From: a virus
IMG/VR virus record: IMGVR_UViG_3300018469_000007
Location: 1 to 27,153 of that record
DNA: 27,153 nucleotides
Reading direction: 5' to 3' (one strand)
The stretch's first letter is position 1. Every line of letters begins with the position of its first letter. Positions 3,255 to 27,153 of this stretch are shown one piece after another. The translations under genes and the position numbers were made by a program. The notes beneath the pieces were generated by a model. The model searched no databases. It was not told where the DNA came from and was given only the letters and a program-made list of their open reading frames with translations.

Positions 3255-4892
3255 ATGGATCTCCAGCAGGCTCTCAACATCCTGGGGCGGGTTGGCGCGG
3301 GAGAGACTCTCTCGCTGTCCGAACTCACTCAGGCCCGTGACGTCATCGCCCGTCACCTTCACTCCCTCCGTGGTTCTGCGGCGCCGGACCTCGACGCCTT
3401 GACCACCCTTCGCGAGTCCTACTTCGCTGCCGACGCCGCCGTCAAGGCGCTCACCGAGCAGCAGGAAGCGGCGATCGCAGACGTGGACGCCGCGCTGTCC
3501 GACATCCCGGACCCCGACGCCGAGGCCGAGGGCGACCCGGACGACGAGGACCCGGACGCGGAGGAGGACCCCGACGCCGAGGAGGACCCGGACAATGAGA
3601 AGGAGAAGTCCCTCTCGACCCGGAAGAAGGGCAAGATGCTCTCCGTCCAGGAGGCAGTCGCCCGTCTCGGTCTCACCCCCGCCATCCCCGGCGCTTCCAG
3701 CACGCAGACCCGGGAGCGTGACCTCGCTGCCACCGAGACCCGTGTGATCCTGAACGGGGACGTCGTCTCCGACCCGACGCTCTACACGCTGGCCGAGGCG
3801 TTCCGCGACGCTGCGAGCCGGAGCCTGAAGTCGGGCAAGGAGCGGATCGCTCGCGTCGAGACCGCCTACGACGAGGCCCGGACGCTCTCCGGCAAGATCA
3901 ACGCCGACACCCGGCTGCTCGACTCGTTCGTCAGCCCGGAGGCCGTGACCGCCGCTGGTGGCTGCTGCTCCCTGCCGCAGCCGATCTACAGCAACCCGGT
4001 CAACGGCAGCACGGACCGCCCGATCAAGTCTGCGCTGCCGACGCTGGGCGCATCGCGGGGCAAGTTCACGTTCTTCCCGGCCATCTGCCTCCCGGTGGAC
4101 GGCTTCGGGGTGTGGACCTGCGAAGACGACGAGGCCGTGGTCGAGGCTGACCCGGACACCTGGAAGGTCTGCGCCGAGGTCGACTGCGACGAGACCGACG
4201 AGGCCGAGGTCTACGCGGTCTACTCCTGCGTCACCGTGGGCAACTACACGACCCGGTTCGCCCCCGAGCAGTGGCAGGGCTACCTCGCCGCTCTGGCGAT
4301 TCAGAACGCCCGTCGGGGCGAGGTGCTCCTGTTCGAGCAGATGCGGACCGAAGTCCTGTCGACCTACACCGTCGACGCGCTCGGCTCCACCTTCGCCAAC
4401 ACGGTGAACGGTGTCGGCACCGCCGCCGCCGCGCTCCGCACCGACCAGCGCCTCGGCGATGTCCAGATGGACTTCTTCGTCAGCGAGACGCTGCTCACGG
4501 CGATCCGTCTGGAGATGCTCAACCGCCGGATCTACTCCTCGGCGGTCGACGACCCCAACTTCGCGTCGAGCATGCTCAACACGGCTCTCTCGAACGAGGG
4601 TGTCAACGCGGTCTACTCGCAGGACCTGGACCCCGTCCGGTTCGGCTCTGGTGGCACGGACCCGCAGTTCCCCACCACCCTCGGTTCGGTGCTGGCCCCC
4701 AACGGGTTCTTCACCTACCTGGACGGCGGGACGCTGGACCTCGGCACTGAGATCCGGGACCACAACCTCAACCGCCAGAACAAGGTCGCGGCGTTCTCCG
4801 AGTCCTACGAGGGCATCCTGGCCCGAGGCTGCAACGCTCTCGGCCTGGACATCCCGGTCGAGATCTGCGACGCCGTCCCCTGCCCCGCCTGA
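3255..4892 (+). CDS. Major capsid protein with fused acidic N-terminal (scaffold-like) region
   Basis: A 545-residue protein directly after the protease gene. The C-terminal ~330 residues have the composition and motifs of HK97-fold capsid proteins of actinophages: TRFAPEQWQGYLAALAIQNARRGE (split here as a long helix), FFVSETLLTAIRLEML, and an EIRDHNLNRQNKVAAFSESYEG region near the end. The first ~150 residues are helical and charged, with a strongly acidic repeated stretch (units of DPDAEE) at about 86-115 followed by a lysine-rich patch. This is typical of a scaffolding or delta domain removed by the upstream protease. The mature part is rich in cysteine, including a CC pair near residue 237, WTC, VC, VDC, YSC, RGC and a C-terminal EIC/VPC. 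Single stop at 4890-4892. Confidence 0.88.
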   Translation: MDLQQALNILGRVGAGETLSLSELTQARDVIARHLHSLRGSAAPDLDALTTLRESYFAADAAVKALTEQQEAAIADVDAALSDIPDPDAEAEGDPDDEDPDAEEDPDAEEDPDNEKEKSLSTRKKGKMLSVQEAVARLGLTPAIPGASSTQTRERDLAATETRVILNGDVVSDPTLYTLAEAFRDAASRSLKSGKERIARVETAYDEARTLSGKINADTRLLDSFVSPEAVTAAGGCCSLPQPIYSNPVNGSTDRPIKSALPTLGASRGKFTFFPAICLPVDGFGVWTCEDDEAVVEADPDTWKVCAEVDCDETDEAEVYAVYSCVTVGNYTTRFAPEQWQGYLAALAIQNARRGEVLLFEQMRTEVLSTYTVDALGSTFANTVNGVGTAAAALRTDQRLGDVQMDFFVSETLLTAIRLEMLNRRIYSSAVDDPNFASSMLNTALSNEGVNAVYSQDLDPVRFGSGGTDPQFPTTLGSVLAPNGFFTYLDGGTLDLGTEIRDHNLNRQNKVAAFSESYEGILARGCNALGLDIPVEICDAVPCPA

Positions 4893-4930
4893 TCGCCGGC
4901 GACTGACCCCCCAAGGAAGGAGAGGCCCTG

Positions 4931-5692
4931 ATGTCTCAACTCGCACAGGCCGTCGAGGCTCCTGAGGTCAAGGCTGCCTCCGGTGGCATCCTCGCTTCGG
5001 CGCTGCCTGCTCCCGGTGGGTGGGCTCAAGGCCTCTCCATTCCGTTCTACGGATGTGGAGAGCCGCTTCTCCAGGATCGGTGTGTCACCGCGAACGACAC
5101 GGCACACCGGCCCGGAGAGGGTGCGGAGTTCTTCGCATTCGGCATCTCTCAGGGTGCGACCTGTTCCACCCTGAGCCTGCTCGACCAGAAGAAGCACGCG
5201 TCGGGGCGTCTCGACGCCACGACCGAGTGGGCGGTCGCCCGCCAACTCGCCACGGACGGTCTGGGTCTTGGGACCCCGTCCCTCAACGACGGCACCGACC
5301 TCGGCACTGTCGCTGACGGCGATTTCGCCACTGCCCTCTCTGTGCTGGAGCAGGCAGCGGCAGACGCTGGGTTCGGGGCCGAGTGGTGGGTCCACGCCCC
5401 TGTCCGGGCGGCGTCCTATCTGGCCGGGAGTCACCTGCTCGTGGACGACCACACGGCGTCCGGTGCTCCGGTCGTCATCAGCGCGGGATACCCGGTCGTG
5501 GACGGCACCACCGTCCGCCTCTGGGCGACTGGTCCGGTGTGGGCCAGCGTTGACGAGCCGTTCGTCCTGAACAACGTGGACTGGACTGTCAACGAGGACT
5601 CGGCGTTCGCCAACCGTCAGGCGATCGTCGCGTTCGACCCGTGTGTCAACTTGTTCATCGACGTCACCGTCCCGGCCAGCCCGACTCCGTAG
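4931..5692 (+). CDS. Virion structural protein of unknown role
   Basis: A 253-residue protein preceded by a strong ribosome site (GGAAGGAGAGG) 38 bases after the capsid gene. I do not recognise a named family with confidence. It begins with an alanine-rich helix, then GGILASALP, a cysteine-containing segment (FYGCGEPLLQDRC) and GATCSTLSLLDQ. The second half is beta-rich (VVISAGYPVVDGTTVRLWATGPVWASV), reminiscent of the C-terminal strands of some capsid proteins. Its position between the capsid and the probable tail tube gene suggests a head component, such as a decoration, minor capsid or head completion protein. It probably shares its transcript with the capsid gene. The structural role is inferred from position; the exact function is unknown. 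Confidence 0.6.
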   Translation: MSQLAQAVEAPEVKAASGGILASALPAPGGWAQGLSIPFYGCGEPLLQDRCVTANDTAHRPGEGAEFFAFGISQGATCSTLSLLDQKKHASGRLDATTEWAVARQLATDGLGLGTPSLNDGTDLGTVADGDFATALSVLEQAAADAGFGAEWWVHAPVRAASYLAGSHLLVDDHTASGAPVVISAGYPVVDGTTVRLWATGPVWASVDEPFVLNNVDWTVNEDSAFANRQAIVAFDPCVNLFIDVTVPASPTP

Positions 5693-5706
5693 GAAGAGAG
5701 AACGCA

Positions 5707-6384
5707 ATGGGAATCTGCACGACGCCCGATCTGGGGCGTATCAAGAAGGTCGGGCTCTTCCTGGCCGACGAATGCCTGACCCCGCTCTACGGGGCCGACA
5801 TGGGCTACCTTGATGATTGCCCCGCAGCCTTCGAGACGAGCGACAACGTCGACGACGGCGAGGAGTTCACGCGCCGCTGTGCCGACGGGTCGATCAAGCG
5901 GTACATCCCGGGCGTCAAGTCGCTCCAGTCCATCGAGGTGAACGTCGACCTCCACTGGCTCGACCCCGAGTGGATCGCGAACGCGGGCGGTGCCACGGCG
6001 ATCGAGCACGACAGCGAGGTCATCGGCTGGGCCGACGGCAAGTCCGACCGCTTCAACGTCGTGGTCGTGGTCTGGCAGGAGATCCTCGGCGAGTGCGGCG
6101 GTGGCGTCACTGGCGATTTCGTCCGGATCTACCCGGTCAAGGGCGCGACGGTCACCGAGGAGGGCACCCCCGGCTCGGAGGACAACTACGTCCGCATCAC
6201 CGGCCAGACCTCCGACAGCCACAACATCGGCTTCGGCCCGGTGCCGCTGGCGCTGGACTCCACCACCGGCGACACCGAGTGGCTGTCCGACGAACTGGCG
6301 GACGGCACCCATCGCTTCCGGTTCGTCGGCGGCACCGCCCCCGACGGCTGCGGATCGGTCGCCACCATCGCACCCACCTCCTGA
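5707..6384 (+). CDS. Probable major tail (tube) protein
   Basis: 225 residues from the ATG at 5707, chosen because an AGGAAGAGAG ribosome site at 5691-5700 precedes it; the frame is open further upstream but overlaps the previous gene without a ribosome site. The sequence is beta-rich with features I associate with tail tube proteins of actinophages: DDGEEFTRRCADGSIKR, IEVNVDLHWLDPEW, GDFVRIYPVKGA, a glycine-rich ITGQTSDSHNIGFGP turn, and a C-terminal FRFVGG strand. Tube proteins polymerise around the tape measure to form the tail lumen. Finding it before the head-tail connectors rather than just upstream of the chaperones is unusual. A head-associated protein remains the alternative. Confidence 0.6.
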   Translation: MGICTTPDLGRIKKVGLFLADECLTPLYGADMGYLDDCPAAFETSDNVDDGEEFTRRCADGSIKRYIPGVKSLQSIEVNVDLHWLDPEWIANAGGATAIEHDSEVIGWADGKSDRFNVVVVVWQEILGECGGGVTGDFVRIYPVKGATVTEEGTPGSEDNYVRITGQTSDSHNIGFGPVPLALDSTTGDTEWLSDELADGTHRFRFVGGTAPDGCGSVATIAPTS

Positions 6385-6397
6385 TCGGTAGGACACG

Positions 6398-7120
6398 ATG
6401 ACTCTCCTGAGTGAGACCTCGTGTCCGTGGGAGGTGGATGCAGAGAGTTGCGGGCTGGCTGACCTGGACCCGGAAGCCCCGCTCTTCATCTCCTCCGTCG
6501 CGACAGCCTCGTCCATCATGACGAGGCTGTCGGCGTACACGATCGGAATGTGCGAGGTCGAGATCCGCCCGCTCAACCTGTGCCCGGAGTGCCGTGAGTG
6601 GTGCTGCGGAGGTTCGGACGCGATCTATCTCAAGGGTCCGTTCAGCATCCCCGTCTGGGACGTCACTCGTGTTCGGCTCGGCGCGGACGAGTACCCGGAA
6701 GCCTCGTGGCGATTCGATCGCGACTCGCGGATGCTCTACCGCGTGCCCCCAGATGTCTGGCCGCGCAAGGACGAGAAGTGGTCCAACGCGGGTGAGGGCG
6801 AGGCGTTCGTCGTGGACGCCGAGGTCGGCACCCCGCCGGACGCGTGGGCGCTGGACGTGGCCGCTCGGCTGACGAAGGAACTCTACCTGTCCTGCACGGG
6901 TGCGAAGTGCCGCCTTCCGTCCAACGTCACCACAGTCACCAGTCAGGGCATCACGGTGCGGCTCCGAGACGACGAGGTGAACACGTTCATCCCGGAACTC
7001 GGGGCTTGGACCCACGCTGTCAACCCGCACAACGCTCGTCTGCCGGGGGCCGTGTTCAGCCCCGACCTCGCAGCGGCGCGCAGGGGCTCTCTGAGGGTCG
7101 TAGGGAATTGCTGTGGGTGA
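6398..7120 (+). CDS. Head-to-tail adaptor protein
   Basis: A 240-residue protein. The N-terminus (SCPWEVD, CGLADLD, SVATASSIMTRLSAYTIGMC) followed by a cysteine cluster (CPECREWCCGG) matches the pattern of head-tail adaptor proteins of actinobacterial siphoviruses, in which an alpha-helical bundle docks under the portal ring. The C-terminal half (WALDVAARLTKELYLSC, then GITVRLRDDEVNTFIPELGAW) is also typical: helix, then a strand that contacts the next ring. The ATG at 6398 lies 14 bases after the previous stop. Nine or more cysteines is high for a cytoplasmically assembled protein. The assignment rests on motif recognition and position. Confidence 0.65.
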   Translation: MTLLSETSCPWEVDAESCGLADLDPEAPLFISSVATASSIMTRLSAYTIGMCEVEIRPLNLCPECREWCCGGSDAIYLKGPFSIPVWDVTRVRLGADEYPEASWRFDRDSRMLYRVPPDVWPRKDEKWSNAGEGEAFVVDAEVGTPPDAWALDVAARLTKELYLSCTGAKCRLPSNVTTVTSQGITVRLRDDEVNTFIPELGAWTHAVNPHNARLPGAVFSPDLAAARRGSLRVVGNCCG

Positions 7121-7155
7121 CGGCACCACCGGCACGCCGTACGGCGCTCAGAACG

Positions 7156-7190
7156 GCTCTGAGGGGCTTCTGAGGGCATCCTGGGGTGGT
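7156..7190 (+). repeat. Dispersed repeat, copy 1 (intergenic)
   Basis: Reads GGCTCTGAGGGGCTTCTGAG followed by GGCATCCTGGGG. It contains two tandem ~10-base units (TCTGAGGGGCT and TCTGAGGGCA) and a TCCTGGGG tail. The same arrangement is found at 21861-21905 and 25329-25362. This copy fills the gap between two connector genes and ends only 8 bases before the next ATG, so it may affect translation initiation there. Confidence 0.7.
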
Positions 7191-7197
7191 GGCTGGC

Positions 7198-7713
7198 ATG
7201 GTTGAGCGGCTGTATGCAACGGCTGACACGATTCTCCAGTGCGTAGCGGACGCTCTGGCTGCTGATCTGCGTCCGGTGTGCAAGGCGTATCAGACGCACG
7301 GCATACCCGTGATCTTTCTGTGCTGCGAGTGTGAAGAAGAGGCCAACGGCGAGGTCAGCATTCACTTCCGTCGTCTCATGGATGCGGACCCGTCCTCGCT
7401 TGACGAGGTGCGTCGTATCCGCCCGTGCCACGGCGGGGTGACAGCCGCTCAGTTCCGGATCGTACTGGCCCGGTGTCGCCCCGTGATCAACGAGAAGGGC
7501 GAGGTCCCGCCGCCCGAGACCTTGACTGAGCACACTGAGGACCAACTCCGTGACGTGGAGTTGCTCTGGCAGAGTCTCGCCTGTTGCGGGATGGATATTC
7601 GGATCGACGACGTATCCGCTGACCTCAGTGATCCTGGAAACTGCTCGGTGACGTTCGCCGATGTGACGGTGCAGGTGCAGATCCCCGCGTTGCCAGACTC
7701 CGGCTCCGCTTGA
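7198..7713 (+). CDS. Head-to-tail connector, probable stopper or tail terminator
   Basis: 171 residues from the ATG at 7198; a GTG at 7186 in the same frame is an alternative but overlaps the repeat just upstream. The layout resembles a family common in actinophage connector regions: an N-terminal helix with a cysteine (ADTILQCVADAL), a CCECEE cluster, a strand with HFRRLMDADP, the segment RPCHGG, a QFRIVLARCRPVINEKGEVPPP motif, then a helix with LACCGM. The VLxRCxP...G.PPP element is the most distinctive. Such proteins close the connector or cap the tail tube. It lies between the adaptor and the tail chaperones, which fits. I cannot distinguish stopper from terminator. Confidence 0.6.
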   Translation: MVERLYATADTILQCVADALAADLRPVCKAYQTHGIPVIFLCCECEEEANGEVSIHFRRLMDADPSSLDEVRRIRPCHGGVTAAQFRIVLARCRPVINEKGEVPPPETLTEHTEDQLRDVELLWQSLACCGMDIRIDDVSADLSDPGNCSVTFADVTVQVQIPALPDSGSA

Positions 7714-7734
7714 CCGCTAAAGAAAGAGAACCCC

Positions 7735-8124
7735 ATGTTCGTACGTCTCATCATTCTCCTGACAGGGCTCGCCGCCGCGCTCACCATCGGGCTGTTCGCG
7801 GCTCCTACGGTCAACGCCGACCCACCTAACCACTGCGGGTTCGGCTCTCATCCAGACTGTCCGCCGGACATCAACGTGATGGTCGGCACTCGGTTCAACG
7901 ACGTGATGCTGGGCACCTCCGGCCCGGACGCCATGTTCGGTAAGCGTGGTAACGACCGAATGCGCGGTGCCCTGGGCGACGACGCGCTGTTCGGGATGGC
8001 CGGGAACGACCGACTCCGTGGAGGTCCGGGTGCCGATGTACTGCGCGGCGGCACTGGGTTCGACATCTGCGTCGGTGACTCTCAGGACCGGTTCCGCTAC
8101 TGCGAGCGCATTGTCCGGTTATGA
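7735..8124 (+). CDS. Secreted RTX-type (calcium-binding repeat) protein
   Basis: 129 residues. Residues 1-28 form a clear Sec signal peptide: Arg4, a hydrophobic core (LIILLTGLAAALTIGLFAA) and a VNA|DP cleavage site. After a short CGFGSHPDC loop, residues ~50-110 carry successive nonapeptide-like repeats (FNDVMLG, GPDAMFG, GNDRMRG, GDDALFG, GNDRLRGG, GADVLRGG), the RTX/haemolysin-type calcium-binding motif that folds into a beta-roll. Two further cysteines follow. The gene has a good purine-rich ribosome site (AAAGAAAGAGAA) and overlaps the next small gene by ATGA. A secreted beta-roll protein inside the connector-tail region is unusual; it looks like an accessory (moron-type) gene. Its function, whether a surface factor or virion decoration, is unknown. 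Confidence 0.7.
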   Translation: MFVRLIILLTGLAAALTIGLFAAPTVNADPPNHCGFGSHPDCPPDINVMVGTRFNDVMLGTSGPDAMFGKRGNDRMRGALGDDALFGMAGNDRLRGGPGADVLRGGTGFDICVGDSQDRFRYCERIVRL

Positions 8125-18760: not shown

Positions 18761-19056
18761 TTCAGCCGCTCCCGAAGCCGCGACTGCGAGATCGTTCCAC
18801 CGGCGACCTGCTGGTGTTGATCGTCGCGGGCACCGTCTGTGGGATCACCATCGGCGTTACGGCCAGTCTGGTTGTCGGCAATCTGATCAACCCGAACTCC
18901 GACCAGTCCGGCCCAGCGTCGGCCATTGGGGACGTGGTGAACACCCTGATCGGTCTGCTCGCGGGGTTTCTGGCGGGACGCAGCGACACGGCGTTGACGG
19001 TGAGCAAGACTGAGACACGGGTACGCGAGGAGGAGCGGAAGAAGAACGGCGGATGA
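18757..19056 (+). CDS. Small two-helix membrane protein (holin candidate)
   Basis: 99 residues starting with GTG at 18757 inside the preceding stop (GTGA). There are two hydrophobic segments, at about residues 18-44 ([24 protein letters not shown]) and 58-74 ([15 protein letters not shown]), and a highly charged C-terminal tail ([14 protein letters not shown]). Size, two membrane segments and a charged end are the general holin layout. It lies about 2 kb upstream of the more typical holin next to the endolysins, so it may instead be an antiholin or another envelope protein. It overlaps the collagen-like gene by ATGA. Confidence 0.55.
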
Positions 19057-19544
19057 TCAGGGCCATCCTCGGTCTGGTGCTGGCCGGGGCGCTGATGACA
19101 GGGGCGCTGGTGAACGCCGCCTTTGGACCGTTTCTACTAGAGCCCGCAACCGTCTCAGATGAGAATCCACCCCCCGAGATCGTGGAGACGCCGGGACCGC
19201 CCGGCCCACAGGGGCCGCAAGGAGAACAGGGTAAGACTGGCCCTCCCGGTCCTCAAGGGCTTCCTGGTGTTGACGGCAGGGACGGTGCTGATGGGAGTGA
19301 CGGTGCTCCTGGCGCTCCTGGGAGCAGTGGTCCTCCTGGTAGGACTGGTCTTCGTGGTGCTCCTGGTGATGATGGTGTAGACGGTAAGCGAGGTAAGCCC
19401 GGACCGAAGGGTCTTCCGGGCGCAGATGCGCCGACGCCGGTCCCCGGTGATCTGAACTGCCCGCCGACGTTCACCGCGCAGGAGGTCACATTCAACTCCC
19501 CTGGAGGACAACTCTCCCTGTTCGTTTGCGTGGGACCCCCATGA
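19053..19544 (+). CDS. Membrane-anchored or secreted collagen-like protein
   Basis: 163 residues. Residues ~4-24 are a hydrophobic N-terminal segment ([20 protein letters not shown]) acting as signal peptide or anchor. A proline/glutamate linker is followed by 26 uninterrupted Gly-X-Y triplets (residues 48-125, coding bases 19194-19427), rich in Pro, Asp, Lys and Gln as in bacterial collagens. A short C-terminal domain has two cysteines (NCPP and FVCV) and could serve as a trimerisation knob. Phage collagen repeats are usually in tail fibres; here the N-terminal hydrophobic segment and the lysis-region location suggest export to the host envelope instead. Start and stop overlap or abut neighbours in an operon-like way. 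Confidence 0.75.
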
Positions 19545-19598: not shown

Positions 19599-19691
19599 AT
19601 GAGTGAGCAGACTCCCGAGTACGATCCCGAGTTGGACGACCCGGACGACGACACCACCGGGTACGAAGAGCCGGAAGACACGTCTCCATGA
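19599..19691 (+). CDS. 30-residue acidic peptide
   Basis: The ATG at 19599 is preceded by a perfect GGAGG at 7 bases' distance. The product is MSEQTPEYDPELDDPDDDTT and a GYEEPEDTSP tail, with roughly half of its residues Asp, Glu or Pro and no basic residues. It is disordered by composition. Its TGA overlaps the ATG of the nuclease-fold gene (ATGA), so it could serve mainly to couple translation, or act as an acidic inhibitor or mimic of DNA for the nuclease encoded next. Both ideas are inference. Confidence 0.5.
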   Translation: MSEQTPEYDPELDDPDDDTTGYEEPEDTSP

Positions 19692-20401
19692 AGACGCCCT
19701 CGTTGAAGCGTCACCCCGAGGTGATCGTCTCGTTCAACGCCGAGGTAGGACGTGGCGGGAAGGCGGCGGTGCATAGCATTCGAGGCATCATCGAGGACCA
19801 CCCTCGGGTGAGCGTGATCGCGCTCCAGGAGTCCGAGGGCTACGTGGACGATCTGCGTCAGACGTTCAAGGGTTGGAAGACCTACGCCAAGGCTGGCTGG
19901 CCCGAGTCCGACAACTGCCCGATCATGGTCAAGCGATCCGAGTACACCCCACGAACGCGGTACGGCAAGACCTGGGGAACCCTCAAGTGCAACCGTACCT
20001 GGATCGGCCCAAAGGCCGGACTCAAGCATCCGGGGCGGACCTGGACCTGGGTGAAGGTGGGTAGTGTCTACGTGCTCAGCCTGCACCGGGTCTGGGGCGG
20101 TGAGCGGGACTTCAAGGGCAACGGCGCGGCGTATGCGGAGGAAGCCCGGAAACTCACAGAGTGGATCCGGGAGCATCAGCCCTGCGTGGTCTTCGGGGAC
20201 ACGAACTGCGGCTTCTACGAGAAGCATGACAACTCGATGCGCGACATTCGGGAGGCCGTGAACGGACTGTTGATCGCGGATGATAACGAGCCTGGTATCG
20301 ACTACGCGCTGACCAAGCGGGTCACCGGGGTAGTCCGGCGCACCAAGACCTACGGCTCGGACCACAAGGCGGCGGTACTGAACGGGATTGAGGTTCGCTG
20401 A
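19688..20401 (+). CDS. Endonuclease/exonuclease/phosphatase-fold enzyme
   Basis: 237 residues with the full signature of the EEP (DNase I-like) superfamily: SFNAEV with Asn17, VIALQESEGY with the metal-binding Glu48, FGDTN with Asp170 and Asn172, IDYAL with Asp204, and the terminal SDH (Asp224, His225). All main catalytic positions are kept, so an active metal-dependent phosphodiesterase or phosphatase is expected. There is no signal peptide, so it acts in the host cytoplasm. Substrate is not shown by the sequence: host DNA, RNA or a phospholipid/nucleotide are possible. It is embedded in the lysis cassette, overlapping genes on both sides. Confidence 0.82.
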   Translation: MKTPSLKRHPEVIVSFNAEVGRGGKAAVHSIRGIIEDHPRVSVIALQESEGYVDDLRQTFKGWKTYAKAGWPESDNCPIMVKRSEYTPRTRYGKTWGTLKCNRTWIGPKAGLKHPGRTWTWVKVGSVYVLSLHRVWGGERDFKGNGAAYAEEARKLTEWIREHQPCVVFGDTNCGFYEKHDNSMRDIREAVNGLLIADDNEPGIDYALTKRVTGVVRRTKTYGSDHKAAVLNGIEVR

Positions 20402-21928: not shown

Positions 21929-22198
21929 CTACGCCGTGAGGGGCACTTCCTGGTTCTCCACCTTGACGTAGGTGTCGAGGTAGGCGACACCCTTCTCTCG
22001 GTTGAAAGTCACCTCGTAGTACCGCCCGTCGGGCAGGTCGGTAGAGCAGAGCGCCTTCCAGTTGCCGAGCACGTACACGAACCAGACGACGTAGACCGTC
22101 CCCTCCGTGACCTTGGACACGATGTCCTTCGCCAACTCGGGGTACGTCTGTCCCTCGTCGTCGGTGGAGAACGGGATGCCCTTCAGGTTGTCCGCCAT
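21929..22198 (-). CDS. Small protein of unknown function
   Basis: 89 residues from the ATG at 22198 (reverse strand), chosen because AAGGAG precedes it; the open frame extends upstream into the neighbouring gene without a ribosome site. The sequence has an N-terminal acidic helix (YPELAKDIVSKV), an aromatic strand (TVYVVWFVYVLGNWKALCS), and GRYYEVTFNREKGVAYLDTYVK strands, suggesting a small alpha/beta domain. No family recognised. It is the last gene of the minus-strand block, 2 bases after the Stealth-like glycosyltransferase, and so likely co-expressed with it. Confidence 0.6.
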   Translation of the reverse strand: MADNLKGIPFSTDDEGQTYPELAKDIVSKVTEGTVYVVWFVYVLGNWKALCSTDLPDGRYYEVTFNREKGVAYLDTYVKVENQEVPLTA

Positions 22199-22200
22199 GA

Positions 22201-22890
22201 TTACTCCTTCTCGTAGATGGATGCGTCGGGGAACAGGTAGCGCAGCACCGGCTCGACACTGCGCCGGAACGAGTCGGGTGACGAGGACAGCCACGGGCCA
22301 CGCGGGAATGGATCCATCCGGCGCAGCATCTTCGGGTCGACCCACTCTTCGCCACCGAGGTCGGTCATGACGCCGTACAGGGTTCTCAGGTGGAAGTGCT
22401 GCGCGGACTCCTTGTTCGCCAGTTCGATCGCTTCCAGCATCTCAGCCTTGTGGACGATCAGTGGCATGTGGATGGAGTACGACAGCGCCCCCTCCAGCAT
22501 CCCCAGCCTATCGAGCAGGGCGGCGGTCTGTTTGAGTCCCTTCGCCCACGGGGTACGGTGCGCCTTCATCTTCTCCACGTGATCGACCAGTAGTCCGCGG
22601 TGGTATGTCCCTACGGTGCCGATCTCCCGCATCGCGTAGAAGTCGTCGTTCCAGAGCATGAAGGGGTCGCTCACCTCCGGCGTCTTGCACGCTGCCGTGA
22701 TGTGACCTCGGGAGGAGCGGGCCGGGGTGTTGTCCTGCCTCCGTTTGTGATGCGTGACCGTACCCGTGTTCAGCCACGTCGGCGCGCCACCGAACACCCA
22801 GACGCGGGCGTGGTCGACGTTGGGCAACGTACGGAGGGAGTACCGCAGTTCGGGGTTCTCCCCGTCTCGGCATACGTAGACAGCGTCCAT
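22201..22890 (-). CDS. Stealth-like glycosyltransferase/sugar-phosphate transferase
   Basis: 229 residues from the ATG at 22890, which overlaps the preceding stop (TGATG); a GTG one codon earlier is the alternative. The N-terminus DAVYVCRDGENPELRYSLRT followed by ARVWVFGG resembles the first conserved block of Stealth-type proteins. FMLWNDDFYAM with an Asn-Asp-Asp at 81-83 resembles the metal/nucleotide-sugar binding block. A downstream histidine (SIHMPLIVHK) fits the third block. Such enzymes transfer hexose or hexose-1-phosphate groups. In this phage the acceptor may be modified DNA, a virion protein or the host surface. The fold class is moderately certain; the substrate is unknown. Confidence 0.6.
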   Translation of the reverse strand: MDAVYVCRDGENPELRYSLRTLPNVDHARVWVFGGAPTWLNTGTVTHHKRRQDNTPARSSRGHITAACKTPEVSDPFMLWNDDFYAMREIGTVGTYHRGLLVDHVEKMKAHRTPWAKGLKQTAALLDRLGMLEGALSYSIHMPLIVHKAEMLEAIELANKESAQHFHLRTLYGVMTDLGGEEWVDPKMLRRMDPFPRGPWLSSSPDSFRRSVEPVLRYLFPDASIYEKE

Positions 22891-23099
22891 CACAGGAGAT
22901 CAGCCCCGTAGCCCTTGGGGTAGACGACCTGACCCGTGTCGACGATCACGGCGCGGGCAATCATCTTCCCCTTGTCCGTGACACCTGTGACGTACTTCTC
23001 GGGGTTCATGAGGTTGAGCCCCGCGTGGCCCACCCACCATTCAGCCCGCGTTGGAGACCAGTACTCCACCCGTACGAACTCCGGAACATCGAACGTCAC
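22890..23099 (-). CDS. Small protein of unknown function
   Basis: 69 residues from a GTG at 23099 that overlaps the stop of the upstream membrane peptide, with GAGG about 7 bases before it. The open frame reaches 23207, but the added part covers the whole membrane-peptide gene in another frame. The product has a VRVEYWSPTRAEWWVGH segment and an ARAVIVDTGQVVYP strand, suggesting a small SH3-like beta barrel. No function recognised. It shares one base with the glycosyltransferase start and is thus probably co-translated with it. Confidence 0.5.
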   Translation of the reverse strand: MTFDVPEFVRVEYWSPTRAEWWVGHAGLNLMNPEKYVTGVTDKGKMIARAVIVDTGQVVYPKGYGADLL

Positions 23100-23212
23100 T
23101 TGTAGCCTCTTCTCTCGTCTTCGTCCCCGGCTGCCTTGAGTAGCGCCCAGACAAAAAGCAGAATCACGGCGTAGATGATGGCCCCAATGATCACCCAGAG
23201 CCACCACGGCAT
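23096..23212 (-). CDS. 38-residue single-pass membrane peptide
   Basis: ATG at 23212, TGA at 23096-23098. The product begins MPWWLWVIIGAIIYAVILLF and continues VWALLKAAG, then a charged tail DEDERRGYK: a single transmembrane helix of about 25 residues with a polar C-terminal end. The start lies 1 base after the stop of the upstream gene, whose last codons (GAGGAGGAGG) supply a distant ribosome site, so coupling is likely. Its TGA overlaps the next GTG. It fills what would otherwise be an unexplained 115-base gap, with phase-perfect junctions on both sides. Function unknown. Confidence 0.55.
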   Translation of the reverse strand: MPWWLWVIIGAIIYAVILLFVWALLKAAGDEDERRGYK

Positions 23213-23213
23213 G

Positions 23214-23468
23214 TTAGAGGATATCCTCCTCCTCTAATGCGTCGGCCACGAATTGCTCCACGATCCGCTCGTACTCGTCGCGGTACTTGTCCCGCAGCGC
23301 AGCCATCGCTCGACGTCGGATGGTCTCGAGTTTCCGGCTGCGTTCAGGTCCCTTGCGAGCACGGTACTCCTTCACGTACTCGTTGATCGCAGCACGACAT
23401 TCATCACACGGGGTGTCCTTCAGGCGGCGGTGTGCGTAGTACCCTCCGCGGGTCCCGTGGTTGATCAT
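23214..23468 (-). CDS. Small CxxC protein of actinophage type
   Basis: 84 residues from the ATG at 23468, preceded by GAGGGG; a longer frame overlaps the upstream gene. The N-terminal part INHGTRGGYYAHRRLKDTPCDECRAAINEYVKEYRA matches a pattern often seen in small actinobacterial and actinophage proteins: a His, GxY, H, then CxxC followed by a Tyr/Arg-rich helix. This may bind zinc and nucleic acid. The C-terminal half is a charged helix ending in an acidic EEED run. No function established; probably DNA- or RNA-associated by composition. Confidence 0.6.
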   Translation of the reverse strand: MINHGTRGGYYAHRRLKDTPCDECRAAINEYVKEYRARKGPERSRKLETIRRRAMAALRDKYRDEYERIVEQFVADALEEEDIL

Positions 23469-23469
23469 G

Positions 23470-23781
23470 TCAGATCCCCTCGCTGTGGATAACGACACGG
23501 CCACACGTCACGATCAGAGGCGCAGTCTCGAACCCCTTGAGGCTGCCCTCATCATACCCGTCGGGCATGAGCATGTCGCGAGGCTGGCTCGCGTGGTAAC
23601 GAATTGTGGACGTGAGCATGGCTGCTTGGTCGTCACTGTCTACTTGCAGCCCGAACGAGAGCCATGTCCCGTTCCCACTCCGCAAGGTCGCGCATACCAC
23701 GTTCTCCATCTCCAGCACGATGCCATGCAGCACCGCCCCGATCGCTGCGTCCGGCACTTGAACATGCGCGGTGTAATCCAT
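23470..23781 (-). CDS. Protein of unknown function
   Basis: 103 residues; the ATG overlaps the TAA of the glycosyltransferase gene by one base (TAATG). The sequence is beta-rich with DAAIGAVLHGIVLEMENVVCATL and TWLSFGLQVDSDDQAAMLTSTI, a DGYDEG turn and a C-terminal LIVTCGRVVIH strand. There is no signal peptide, membrane segment or recognisable catalytic motif. It lies immediately downstream of the putative base glycosyltransferase and could belong to the same functional unit, but this is only inferred from the operon. Confidence 0.5.
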   Translation of the reverse strand: MDYTAHVQVPDAAIGAVLHGIVLEMENVVCATLRSGNGTWLSFGLQVDSDDQAAMLTSTIRYHASQPRDMLMPDGYDEGSLKGFETAPLIVTCGRVVIHSEGI

Positions 23782-24803
23782 TAGACGAGTTCCTCCATTT
23801 CAGTGATTCTCTCTTGGTCTGCGTCCCACGCAACTCGTTTCTGCTGGGTGCCCCGAAACTTATGGAGAGCCCGCCAGTCCACCTCACCCCATTCGTACTC
23901 GTCGCCGCCCTTCGGACAGACGCGCAGGTAGTTGTCCCCCATCTCGTACTGGCGGAGCATGGCGTACTCGTGTTCGGAGAGTAGGGCCGCGATCCCCGGT
24001 CTCCGGATGGTGGTCTGTGTGTCCCCCTCCTGGTTCCGGTTCTTGCCCTCGTTCTGGTTCCAGTACTCGAACGCGAACGACGGCATGGTGAACGCGTCCA
24101 TCCCGGCCTGGAACAGTGTGGCAAGAAAGCCGACGTCCTCGCCCACGATACCGAACTGGTCGAGGTTGAGTCGAATGCCATGCTGTTCCAGACGTTCTAG
24201 GTCCCACGCCGTCCACTGGCGCGGGGTACTGCCACCGTTCAGCAGGTAGCGAGTCTGCTGGTTCCGGTTGTCGAACGACCGCAGCCGCTTGATCGCGGTG
24301 CCGATTACCGCCTTCGGCTCTTCGTCGAAGACGTTGTCCGCGATCTTACCCATCATGGTGACGGTGGCTTCTTCCAACGCGATCAGCCCACCGTACTCGG
24401 CGATGTCGTCCTTGTCGAAGACCCGGCTGCACGGCATTCCCGCGTTCGGCCCGCGCACGAAGTGGTGCTGATACAGCGGGCGGAACTGGAGTAGGTCGTC
24501 GTCCATCATCACGGCTCGTTGGTAGCCGTACTCACGGGCGAGATCGTACGCGCCCCAACGGGCCGCTCCGCACGAGCCGATCTGGTCGTCGGGCAGTGGC
24601 TCGAACCGCAGGGAAGGGAACGCCTTGCGGTACTCGGCTACCTGCGACTGCCGCACCACGACATGAACGTCGTCCAGCCGTTCCCAGTCTTGCATCCGGG
24701 TCAGGGTGGGTGCGTCGAATCGGTTGTACGAGATCACCCACACCGGGAGGCGGTCCTCCTTCTCCGCCCGGTACAGGTAGTGGAACATCTCCTCCCGCAG
24801 CAT
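23781..24803 (-). CDS. TET-associated-type glycosyltransferase (GT-A fold)
   Basis: 340 residues, start overlapping the stop of the TS-like gene (TGATG). The N-terminus PVWVISYNRFD, then a DDVHVVVRQSQVAEYRKAF strand-helix, GAARWGAYDLAREYG, and AVMMDDDLLQF with Asp101-103 as the DxD metal/nucleotide-sugar site reproduce the order of motifs in GT-A enzymes of the TET/JBP-associated group. Further on, NGGSTPRQWTAWD and GIVGEDVGFLATLFQAGM are acceptor/catalytic-side motifs (the ED pair is typical). In established cases such enzymes glycosylate hydroxymethylated pyrimidines in phage DNA. Directly following a TS-fold enzyme, that role is a reasonable inference here. A protein or surface-sugar substrate is the alternative. 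Confidence 0.7.
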   Translation of the reverse strand: MLREEMFHYLYRAEKEDRLPVWVISYNRFDAPTLTRMQDWERLDDVHVVVRQSQVAEYRKAFPSLRFEPLPDDQIGSCGAARWGAYDLAREYGYQRAVMMDDDLLQFRPLYQHHFVRGPNAGMPCSRVFDKDDIAEYGGLIALEEATVTMMGKIADNVFDEEPKAVIGTAIKRLRSFDNRNQQTRYLLNGGSTPRQWTAWDLERLEQHGIRLNLDQFGIVGEDVGFLATLFQAGMDAFTMPSFAFEYWNQNEGKNRNQEGDTQTTIRRPGIAALLSEHEYAMLRQYEMGDNYLRVCPKGGDEYEWGEVDWRALHKFRGTQQKRVAWDADQERITEMEELV

Positions 24804-26329
24804 CAGTCTACGTCAGCTCCTCGGTAGACGTCCTGCTCGTTGTACCAGACATCGCGCGCGATGGGCGTCAAGCGCCGTGCGAAGTCCAGCATGAGTTCGC
24901 GCTTCTGCTCTTCGGGGATGTCGTCGATGTTGTCGGCGTAGCGGTTGAAGTCGTTCACGATGTCGACAATGGCGATGTCCGCCGCCTGCCCCACGGTCTC
25001 TTCCTCTTCCGCCAGGAACCAGGAGAGCCAGTAGTTCACGTTGTCCGGGCCTTCGTCCTCATGGACAAGCCAGAGCCGGTACTTGATTGTGTAGACCAGG
25101 AGGTCGAGCAAGGTGTCGGCCGCGCTGTCGTACTCGTCGCTCACTCCCAGCCGGTCCACCTTGCGGGCCATGTTCGCCAGGATCGACATCTTCTCCCCGC
25201 GCTTCTTCCACGAGTCACCGTACGACGCGTGCTTGGTCGCATGCAGGTCCTTGACGAATTCGTAGAAGGCCCGTGTGCGCTCGTGCGCCGCTAGGTTGTG
25301 CCCCGGTGCCCCCGCACCGCTGCGCGACGCTCTGAGAGGCTCTGAGAGCACGCTGGCGGGGGTTCTAGCCACGGCCACGGCCAGCGCCGTACCCTGGATG
25401 CCGGAGAGCCACGCATCGTCTCGGGTCCAGTAGTACGCAATCGCATGAGCCCACGACGTGAACAGCGGCTCCTCGATCGCTTCCAGGCCCTCTAGCGTGG
25501 CCTTGCCTTCCCGGCACCACTCCTCCCAATCGAACCACTTCTCGAGCAGGTTGTTCAAGTCGCGAATGGACCTGATGGTTCGATGCGGGTCGAACGGGGT
25601 GATCGGGTAGTGGAAGTCCTCGTGCTCGATACGGCTGGCCTTGCTCCAGTGTCGGTCGTAGAGATGCAGGCTGCCGATGTTGAATGTGAGCGTGCCCACG
25701 GCAACGCCGAGCAGGCGGGCCACGATCTCCTGGAGCGTGCTCCACTCGAAAGCATTGATCCCCGACCAGCCCCACATCACATCGTTGGACCGCACGGTCA
25801 CGGTGAGGTGCAGGGCACCGAGGCGGCTCTGGAACTGCAAGAAGTCGTTGCAGGGGATGTCCTTGCCGGGGGCCGTGTCCACGACGGGGTCGTAGATCGC
25901 GATCACCGCACGCCGGGACAACGGGTCTTCCCGGAGCAGGTCAACGACGTGGGTGAGTTGGTCGACGTAGCGTTCACCATAGACATCGTCTCCAGCGTGC
26001 CAGTGACGGATGCGAGGGCCGTAGCCGCCTCTCCACGTCTCCCCGTCATCGCTGTAGTCCTTGGCTCGCGGCAGGTATGCGCTCAGCCACTCGATGTCGT
26101 TGCGCCCCGCTAGCACCCACATCGTCTCAGCGATCTGTGCGAAGACATTGGCCTTGCGGTTGAGGCTGGGGATCTCCCGCCGCTGCGGATCTGTCAGGAC
26201 GATCTGGGTGTTCAGCAGTTCCTTCACCCGCCCGTTCCTGCTGCCCACTTCGTCGCTGTGATCCAGCAGGTCGTTCAGGATGTGAGGTAGCGCCTCACTC
26301 GCCGTTGGAAACGAGTACTTCTCGTTCAC
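24803..26329 (-). CDS. Thymidylate-synthase-like pyrimidine (hydroxy)methylase fused to Nmad1/DUF1599-like domain
   Basis: 508 residues starting with GTG at 26329, inside the preceding stop (GTGA). Residues ~1-300 have the TS fold: LSRRAVIAIYDP with the phosphate-binding Arg pair 139-140, DIPCND with nucleophile Cys160, RSND 180-183, and HLYDRH (222-227) for the sugar/phosphate. The loop that reads LGxPFNxA in standard TS is WGWSGINAFEWS here, so base recognition may differ (dUMP or dCMP, methylation or hydroxymethylation). Residues ~350-430 (KHASYGDSWKKRGEKMSILANMARKVDRL..ADTLLDLLVYTIKYRLW) match the nucleotide-modification-associated domain 1 pattern. The linker (~318-347) holds a copy of the dispersed repeat. 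It probably supplies modified dNMPs for phage DNA. Confidence 0.75.
   Translation of the reverse strand: MNEKYSFPTASEALPHILNDLLDHSDEVGSRNGRVKELLNTQIVLTDPQRREIPSLNRKANVFAQIAETMWVLAGRNDIEWLSAYLPRAKDYSDDGETWRGGYGPRIRHWHAGDDVYGERYVDQLTHVVDLLREDPLSRRAVIAIYDPVVDTAPGKDIPCNDFLQFQSRLGALHLTVTVRSNDVMWGWSGINAFEWSTLQEIVARLLGVAVGTLTFNIGSLHLYDRHWSKASRIEHEDFHYPITPFDPHRTIRSIRDLNNLLEKWFDWEEWCREGKATLEGLEAIEEPLFTSWAHAIAYYWTRDDAWLSGIQGTALAVAVARTPASVLSEPLRASRSGAGAPGHNLAAHERTRAFYEFVKDLHATKHASYGDSWKKRGEKMSILANMARKVDRLGVSDEYDSAADTLLDLLVYTIKYRLWLVHEDEGPDNVNYWLSWFLAEEEETVGQAADIAIVDIVNDFNRYADNIDDIPEEQKRELMLDFARRLTPIARDVWYNEQDVYRGADVD
25329..25362 (+). repeat. Dispersed repeat, copy 3 (inside the TS-fusion gene)
   Basis: Two tandem units, TCTGAGAGGC (25331-25340) and TCTGAGAGCA (25341-25350), then CGCTGGCGGGGG. 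Read on the coding (minus) strand it encodes TPASVLSEPLRA (residues 323-334), in phase and without a stop, in the linker between two domains. The flanking GGGGTTCT.GCC resembles the flank of copy 2 (GGGGTTGTGCC). Confidence 0.7.
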
Positions 26330-26862
26330 GGCAACTCCATCCCATCGATCGCATCCTGGAGGGACTCACGGGTGTCCGTGAGCCACTGCTCGTGTGCGTT
26401 CTCGAACGAGACGTAGTTGGAGTAGGCGTCCTTCCAGTTGTCCGGGGTGGGCTCCTCCTGCTCCGGCTCCCAACCCTCCAACTCGTCGGCTGCGCTGTTC
26501 AGCATCTCCGCCCGCTCCTGGAGGTCGTAGTTCTTGTCGTACATCTCACTGTCCTCGTACTGCCCGGCGACCTCCTGGATCGCGGACACCACGTCGTCGC
26601 GGGCCGTCTCCAGGTCCTCGAGACCACCAGCGGTGGACAGGTCGACCTCCTCCTGCGCGGCGTACACATCAGCCACCAGCGATGACTCGCGCTCGCTGGG
26701 CTTGGGGAAGCACTCGGACTTCGTGCAGCGGGTCCGCGGACGAGCGCGGAACCCCACGGCGAAGCGGATGGCGGGATCCCCGACCTTGATCTCCAGCCCG
26801 CACTTCCCGCACTTACCGGGCTTCCGCACCCGGCCAATCTGGTTGACTTTGGCCAGACTCAT
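26326..26862 (-). CDS. Zinc-ribbon protein with acidic helical tail
   Basis: 178 residues, ATG at 26862 behind GGAGAAAGG. Residues 18-51 hold CGKCGLEIKVGDPAIRF..RTRCTKSECFP, a CxxC...C...C arrangement in the style of a treble-clef or PARP-type zinc finger with a basic patch (FRARPRTR) suited to nucleic acid contact. The remainder is strongly acidic and helical, with coiled-coil-like stretches (YAAQEEVDLSTAGGLEDLETARDDVV, NYDLQERAEMLNSAADELEG). Similar zinc-finger proteins of unknown function occur in actinophage early regions. It overlaps the TS-fusion gene (GTGA), so it may assist the modification enzymes or act separately as a DNA-binding protein. Confidence 0.6.
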   Translation of the reverse strand: MSLAKVNQIGRVRKPGKCGKCGLEIKVGDPAIRFAVGFRARPRTRCTKSECFPKPSERESSLVADVYAAQEEVDLSTAGGLEDLETARDDVVSAIQEVAGQYEDSEMYDKNYDLQERAEMLNSAADELEGWEPEQEEPTPDNWKDAYSNYVSFENAHEQWLTDTRESLQDAIDGMELP

Positions 26863-26941: not shown

Positions 26942-27153
26942 CTACCACCATGCAGGGACAATGGGGACCGGCTGAGCGCCCGGATGGGCGGGTCGGTACG
27001 CGGTCTTCTTCCGCGGGTTCTTGATCTCGCGAGCGTACTTGCCGAACTCGCAGAGGGTGTTCTGCACGTCCATCAACGTGAGGGAGCGGCCCCTCAGCCA
27101 GACGATCGAGTGGTCCATCCAGTCGAAGGCAAGATCGTAGATCGCGTCCTCCG
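26942..27153 (-). CDS. Unknown protein, C-terminal part (5' end outside window)
   Basis: An open minus-strand frame (codons in phase with 27149-27151) runs from the right edge to TAG at 26942-26944, giving 69 residues: EDAIYDLAFDWMDHSIVWLR, then SLTLMDVQNTLCEFGKYARE and a basic, proline-rich tail RPAHPGAQPVPIVPAWW. It is helical, with no membrane segment. The sequence style is that of small conserved actinophage proteins of unknown function. The start and any N-terminal domain lie outside the window. Confidence 0.5.
   Translation of the reverse strand, partial: EDAIYDLAFDWMDHSIVWLRGRSLTLMDVQNTLCEFGKYAREIKNPRKKTAYRPAHPGAQPVPIVPAWW

Follow-up and report, generated by a model that had tools for sequence, protein, structure and literature searches.

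The IMG/VR virus record IMGVR_UViG_3300018469_000007, whose full 27,153 bases (probably a fragment) are here called the window, probably comes from a virus of soil actinobacteria, and its right end holds a run of minus-strand genes that we interpret as a candidate cassette for DNA hypermodification. A sequence-only reading of this run had described three minus-strand open reading frames (ORFs), namely a synthase, a glycosyltransferase that overlaps it by one nucleotide and, after three small genes, a Stealth-like transferase, and this arrangement stands as described. The cassette reaches further right than that reading stated, to a truncated PF18723 gene that it had missed. The genes at this end of the run are the following.

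26942-27151, minus strand: truncated PF18723 (HMUDK_hel) gene, C-terminal 69 amino acids, cut at the window end; C-E-x-x-K-Y motif; proposed subunit for handling DNA that contains 5-hydroxymethyldeoxyuridine (5-hmdU, or hmdU).
26326-26862, minus strand: conserved protein of 178 amino acids with a CxxC-type N-terminus; overlaps the synthase gene by 4 nucleotides; kept in the related records G001 and G002 and scattered elsewhere.
24803-26329, minus strand: predicted dUMP 5-hydroxymethylase (residues ~1-300) with a helical domain (residues ~346-497) that may be DUF1599/Nmad1-like; 508 amino acids; assigned from PF00303, the residue signature and AlphaFold/Foldseek.
23781-24803, minus strand: TAGT-family GT-A glycosyltransferase (PF20691), 340 amino acids; 1-nucleotide overlap with the synthase gene at 24803; DDD at 101-103; proposed glycosylating enzyme for 5-hmdU in DNA.

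The synthase matches the thymidylate synthase family PF00303 at 3e-26 (Pfam), and the CMP hydroxymethylase MilA is its best match both by sequence among PDB entries (1.4e-31) and by Foldseek with an AlphaFold model (mean pLDDT 69; TM score 0.80 by target length), confirming the fold proposed in the sequence-only reading. When aligned with SPO1 gp29, M6 gp58, a ViI-like enzyme, T4 gp42, MilA and Escherichia coli ThyA, it has Asn at the position of ThyA N177, Cys-Asn replacing Cys-His (146-147) and Ala replacing W80. The Asn, the Cys-Asn and the loss of W80 recur together in all three of SPO1 gp29, M6 gp58 and the ViI-like enzyme; ThyA has W80 and Cys-His, while T4 gp42, MilA and gp49 of Microbacterium phage Juanyo have Cys-Thr, and T4 gp42 and MilA lack the Asn. 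The signature of T4 gp42-type dCMP hydroxymethylases is not present in the window synthase (Asn, not Asp/Tyr; Cys-Asn, not Cys-Thr). Throughout the fusion-synthase family C160, R180-S181-N182-D183 and N192 are invariant, representing the catalytic Cys, the Arg-Ser-x-Asp motif and the base-reading Asn. With every diagnostic residue in place, the enzyme is predicted to be a dUMP 5-hydroxymethylase of the SPO1/M6 type. This signature, together with PF18723, narrows the target base, previously left as thymine or cytosine, to thymine. A 43%-identical synthase is encoded on Pantoea anthophila contig NZ_VHIZ01000008.1 (L126, 1897-2754), the sole match in a scan of bacterial genome contigs.

The second domain of the synthase, helical in the AlphaFold model, had been described as Nmad1/DUF1599-like. 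The fusion itself holds and is family-wide, being common to ~25 phage records (the closest 68-75% identical, the others ~38-47%). No Pfam family, DUF1599 (PF07659) included, matched the domain directly, PF07659 not even at E<=1, and PF07659 went unmatched in 13 records. A profile of the fused domain finds stand-alone proteins in marine loci, in the SPO1-like phage Goe26 and in Lysinibacillus LysYB1, and their genes follow that of a dUMP hydroxymethylase immediately or lie a few genes from it. One of these, Goe26_01480 (1.5e-11, a domain E-value from a small database), matches DUF1599, named in Pfam "nucleotide modification associated domain 1", at E=0.02, and is the sole bridge to that family; SPO1 gp29.3 and gp30.2 were rejected as stand-alone homologues (E>1). 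An Nmad1-like identity is plausible but distant, and the domain probably has a part in producing or removing nucleotide precursors, or serves to dock the synthase. The earlier idea that the fusion would make the final base new finds no support.

The 69 residues of the truncated right-hand gene match PF18723 at 3.1e-5 over model positions 253-276 (23.9 bits against a cut-off of 25), and at 7.9e-7 in a second search. Relatives have a full-length homologue at the corresponding position (L019:3082-3939, for example, at 5e-46), and close relatives match PF18723 over its full length at ~1e-48. PF18723 is the "5-hmdU DNA kinase helical" family of thymine-hypermodifying phages, and in Pseudomonas phage M6 its gene adjoins the hmdU DNA kinase. 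Full-length members occur in G001, G003-G006 and the phages LuckyBarnes, Montesquieu, M6, phiW-14 and Juanyo. The family is also present in 19 of 20 other records that encode the synthase. Across 16 sequences from kinase-type and 26 from glycosyltransferase-type loci, Arg12, Arg43, Asp46, Arg71, Tyr121, Phe175, Asp183, Gly-Pro-Gly 200-202 and Cys-Glu-x-x-Lys-Tyr 250-255 are completely or almost completely conserved. Because the same invariant residues are found in both groups, the pattern fits a protein that would handle hmdU DNA independently of the kinase.

The glycosyltransferase matches PF20691 at 1.8e-9 (38.3 bits; curated cut-off 27.5), and its DDD triad (D101-D103) is invariant in 7 homologues, so the GT-A enzyme with a DDD motif was correctly recognised from the outset. 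The TAGT of T2/T6 is reported to glucosylate phage DNA, and solitary TAGT homologues occur in 288 of 753 phage genomes (PMC13216743). In L058, L061, L122 and other diverse lineages, the genes for PF18723, hydroxymethylase and TAGT lie next to one another. Kinase-type members, as in Montesquieu, usually have MONT_42-like and "ACC deaminase" genes between synthase and kinase; in L058 and L061 the TAGT occupies that post-synthase place, and the order in L122 is PF18723, TAGT, synthase.

Across these families the kinase and the TAGT alternate. Whole-record family searches of the fusion family, tallied by hand, gave an hmdU-type P-loop kinase without a TAGT in 13 records, a TAGT without a kinase in 7 (the window included), neither in 5 and both in none. 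Among 53 loci that carry a hydroxymethylase and PF18723 (de-replicated at 85% identity, drawn by one query, with flanks of at most 10 kb, so that absence means absence there), 17 have the kinase, 15 the TAGT, 21 neither and 0 both (Fisher p=0.001; a first value of 2.8e-10 was discarded because near-duplicate loci had been counted). At least 8 switches between kinase and TAGT are seen on the hydroxymethylase tree, a quick tree with long reference branches. The alternation was recomputed with TAGT alone because GTB2-type genes, which lie between PF18723 and synthase in marine loci and look GT-B-like by eye, had neither Pfam nor PHROGs support. In 13 further de-replicated loci other genes stand beside the synthase: 10 of these loci have a member of a GT4-like family, for which Pfam gave 6.6e-9 with one member and only E=0.046 with another, and 3 have a member of a family without profile support. 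The profiles for the hmdU DNA kinase and the amino-acid:DNA transferase (PF18748, PF18751, phrog_800 and PF18724) found no match in G000-G006, several of which are fragments; M6 and others were matched.

Three observations on neighbouring genes may be recorded here. Where G004/G005 have a second TAGT, G006 (L030:15853-16785) and, through a homologue, G003 encode a GT-A-like protein that contains a DDD stretch; it has no Pfam match and a PHROGs glycosyltransferase match only at 0.046. In L053 (G011, 4493-8124) a fusion synthase and PF18723 occur with neither a kinase nor a recognised glycosyltransferase, and small genes follow. Radical-SAM-like ORFs (CxxxCxxC by eye) lie near TAGT and hydroxymethylase in marine loci (L116:8811-9845 and L109:4871-5890) and possibly perform a further tailoring step on the sugar or base.

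The gene content, the residue signatures, the linkage and the alternation make it probable, in our judgement, that the cassette directs a glycosyl-type thymine hypermodification, in which 5-hmdU is O-glycosylated after replication to a base-J-like product in place of the kinase/amino-acid route. The glycosylated hydroxymethyl pyrimidine of the sequence-only reading thus remains the best reading, with thymine as the base. The fused synthase would convert dUMP to 5-hydroxymethyl-dUMP, a step for which the residue signature is the basis; kinases, probably those of the host, would phosphorylate it further to hmdUTP, from which the phage family-A polymerase would insert hmdU in place of some thymine. 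The PF18723 protein would then recognise hmdU within DNA, and the TAGT, judged by its family and linkage, would move a sugar from a nucleotide-sugar to the hydroxymethyl group, yielding O-glycosyl-5-hmdU. Sister phages would couple the same two core genes to the hmdU kinase and amino-acid-type tailoring genes. The TET/JBP dioxygenase that had been proposed is not needed, because the synthase would supply the hydroxymethyl group. The likely benefit would be resistance to host restriction. To our knowledge, sugar-decorated thymine of this kind has not yet been shown chemically in any phage.

M6-type DNA shows a TG/TC preference at resistant sites, for which the kinase was suggested as the source (PMC6449724). 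It would be tempting to see PF18723 as a partner-neutral hmdU reader that presents the base to either kinase or glycosyltransferase, in which case the glycosyltransferase phages would hold base-J-like O-glycosyl-5-hmdU with the same TG/TC preference. We offer this as a tentative idea, with the chances somewhat against it.

Several points weigh against a glycosylated thymine. A kinase could lie outside the 27-kb window, although longer relatives (up to 55.7 kb) yielded none, and no gene for depleting dTTP/dUTP or for an hmdUMP kinase was identified. A recognised TAGT is missing from the close relatives G002, G003 and G006, two of which (G003 and G006) have another GT-A-like gene instead. The T6 TAGT adds the second glucose, onto an already glucosylated cytosine, and not the first (PMC13216743, 2026). 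Finally, in Juanyo (L042, 2342-8250) PF18723 and a TAGT accompany a dCMP-type synthase that has Cys-Thr and lacks the Asn at N177; PF18723 therefore cannot be taken as a strict thymine marker.

The alternatives that involve surface glycans or a second sugar turn on the downstream part of the run, which comprises the following genes.

23470-23781, minus strand: conserved protein of 103 amino acids, an ORF with same-place homologues in G001, G004 and G005.
23214-23468, minus strand: small CxxC protein, its start (MINHGTRG) placed by comparison with homologues, which are present in the cassettes of G001-G006; weak match to a WhiB-like phrog.
22890-23099, minus strand: small conserved protein, an ORF with homologues from which the probable start was judged.
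22201-22893, minus strand: Stealth-like (GNPTAB-like) candidate hexose-1-phosphate transferase, 230 amino acids; 4-nucleotide overlap with the preceding ORF (22890-22893).
21929-22198, minus strand: DUF6275 protein (PF19791, 4.9e-23) that closes the run downstream, its start placed by comparison with homologues; a homologue adjoins the Stealth-like gene in G004/G005.

The Stealth-like assignment is borne out by phrog_7999 (5e-52) and by PDB 7s6n (GNPTAB, 0.0063), and less well by the Stealth domains themselves: among CR1-CR4 only Stealth_CR2 was matched, at 3.7e-4 and below the Pfam cut-off, while a relative gave a weak CR4 (E=0.096). The AlphaFold model (mean pLDDT 39.7, 5 sequences) was unusable. 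Similarity to GNPTAB means that the protein could still be a hexose-1-phosphate transferase by function. Its gene adjoins the cassette in G001, G002 and G004-G006, along with two more glycosyltransferase-like genes (GT16 and GT17) for which the profiles gave no match in the window. In Streptomyces phage TurkishDelight, Stealth-like and GT17-like genes lie within the structural block and PF18723 is absent, as it also is from OneUp and Fionnbharth, which have Stealth-like homologues. The gene is thus real but poorly tied to DNA modification, and we treat it as a separate module, possibly one that serves virion glycosylation.

An extension of this view to the TAGT would have the glycosyltransferases modify virion or host-surface glycans, with plain 5-hmdU or ordinary nucleotides as the product of the cassette. 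The TurkishDelight genes and a collagen-like gene in the window speak for it, yet in diverse lineages the TAGT lies next to the hydroxymethylase and PF18723, and it alternates with the kinase; we consider it unlikely for the cassette, whereas for the Stealth-like gene alone it is the better reading. Quite unlikely, too, is glycosylated 5-hydroxymethylcytosine as in T4/T6, with the synthase acting on dCMP and the TAGT on hydroxymethylcytosine DNA. The solved structure closest to the synthase is a CMP hydroxymethylase, modified cytosine is the substrate of the one TAGT that has been characterised (PMC13216743), and in Juanyo TAGT and PF18723 are coupled to a T4-type synthase; against this stand the Asn at N177 where Asp/Tyr would be expected, a Cys-Asn unlike the Cys-Thr of T4 gp42, MilA and Juanyo gp49, and the presence in the fusion family of Montesquieu with its kinase-type thymine set. 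A sugar-phosphate thymine, for which the TAGT would add the first sugar and the Stealth-like enzyme a hexose-1-phosphate, has a precedent in Bacillus phage SP-15, whose modified thymine is reported to bear a sugar-phosphate decoration (PMC5977210), and the Stealth-like gene does belong to the same overlapping run and adjoins related cassettes. It is nonetheless highly improbable, and the corresponding suggestion of a second transferase tailoring the DNA is not supported, because Stealth-like homologues occur in phages without PF18723, once among structural genes; LuckyBarnes, moreover, has no Stealth-like gene within the stretch scanned. A plain thymidylate synthase that supplies dTMP beside unrelated neighbours is scarcely credible, for despite the PF00303 match and the "thymidylate synthase" annotation of phage homologues, W80 and H147 of the ordinary dUMP methylase are replaced as in known hydroxymethylases, and PF18723 adjoins.

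Elsewhere in the window, a collagen-like Gly-X-X repeat protein is encoded at 19053-19544 (plus strand), between tail and lysis genes, and an ORF near the lysis genes (19688-20401, plus strand) resembles, by eye, the endonuclease/exonuclease/phosphatase fold.

Should thymine glycosylation by this cassette prove true, the glycosylated thymine of trypanosomatid base J would also be a phage modification, reached by another route, in actinobacterial and marine phages, and we predict a sugar-decorated thymine cassette in many phage lineages. PF18723 would be recast from a kinase accessory to a general handler of hmdU DNA, some TAGT genes without alpha-/beta-glycosyltransferase partners would be accounted for, and the cassettes would be a source of enzymes that sugar-tag hmdU in DNA. 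The same core genes are carried by a cultured phage, Brevibacterium phage LuckyBarnes, and Montesquieu, a Glutamicibacter phage, represents the kinase type.

The predicted system shares elements with several known ones. Phages with plain 5-hmdU of the SPO1 type have a related dUMP hydroxymethylase, and the SPO1 relative Goe26 has its stand-alone Nmad1-like gene directly after it; unlike the window, they have no TAGT neighbour and their domains are unfused. The kinase-type thymidine hypermodification of M6 and ViI starts from the same type of dUMP hydroxymethylase, and a PF18723 protein also occurs in M6, but in the window and its close relatives neither an hmdU kinase (PF18748, PF18751, phrog_800) nor ADDT was found, and a TAGT is present instead. 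In a 2022 paper on pelagiphages (PMC9599517), one region unites these three gene types, as a thymidylate synthase, aG/PT-PPlase1 and a putative TAGT; in the passages of that paper concerned with this region, the set is treated as an add-on possibly broadening the M6 system, and the kinase/glycosyltransferase alternation, a fused synthase and an actinophage family do not figure. In T-even glucosylation (alpha- and beta-glucosyltransferases in T4, TAGT in T2/T6), a thymidylate-synthase-fold enzyme likewise hydroxymethylates the mononucleotide and the sugar follows after replication, and PF20691 is common to the T6 TAGT; the window differs in its dUMP rather than dCMP signature and its PF18723, and no T4-type alpha- or beta-glucosyltransferase was seen in the cassette. 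The closest counterpart of the predicted product, O-glycosyl-5-hmdU, is base J, the beta-D-glucosyl-hydroxymethyluracil of kinetoplastids, but the routes would differ: in kinetoplastids JBP dioxygenases hydroxylate thymine in DNA and JGT then acts, whereas the phage would hydroxymethylate the nucleotide before replication.

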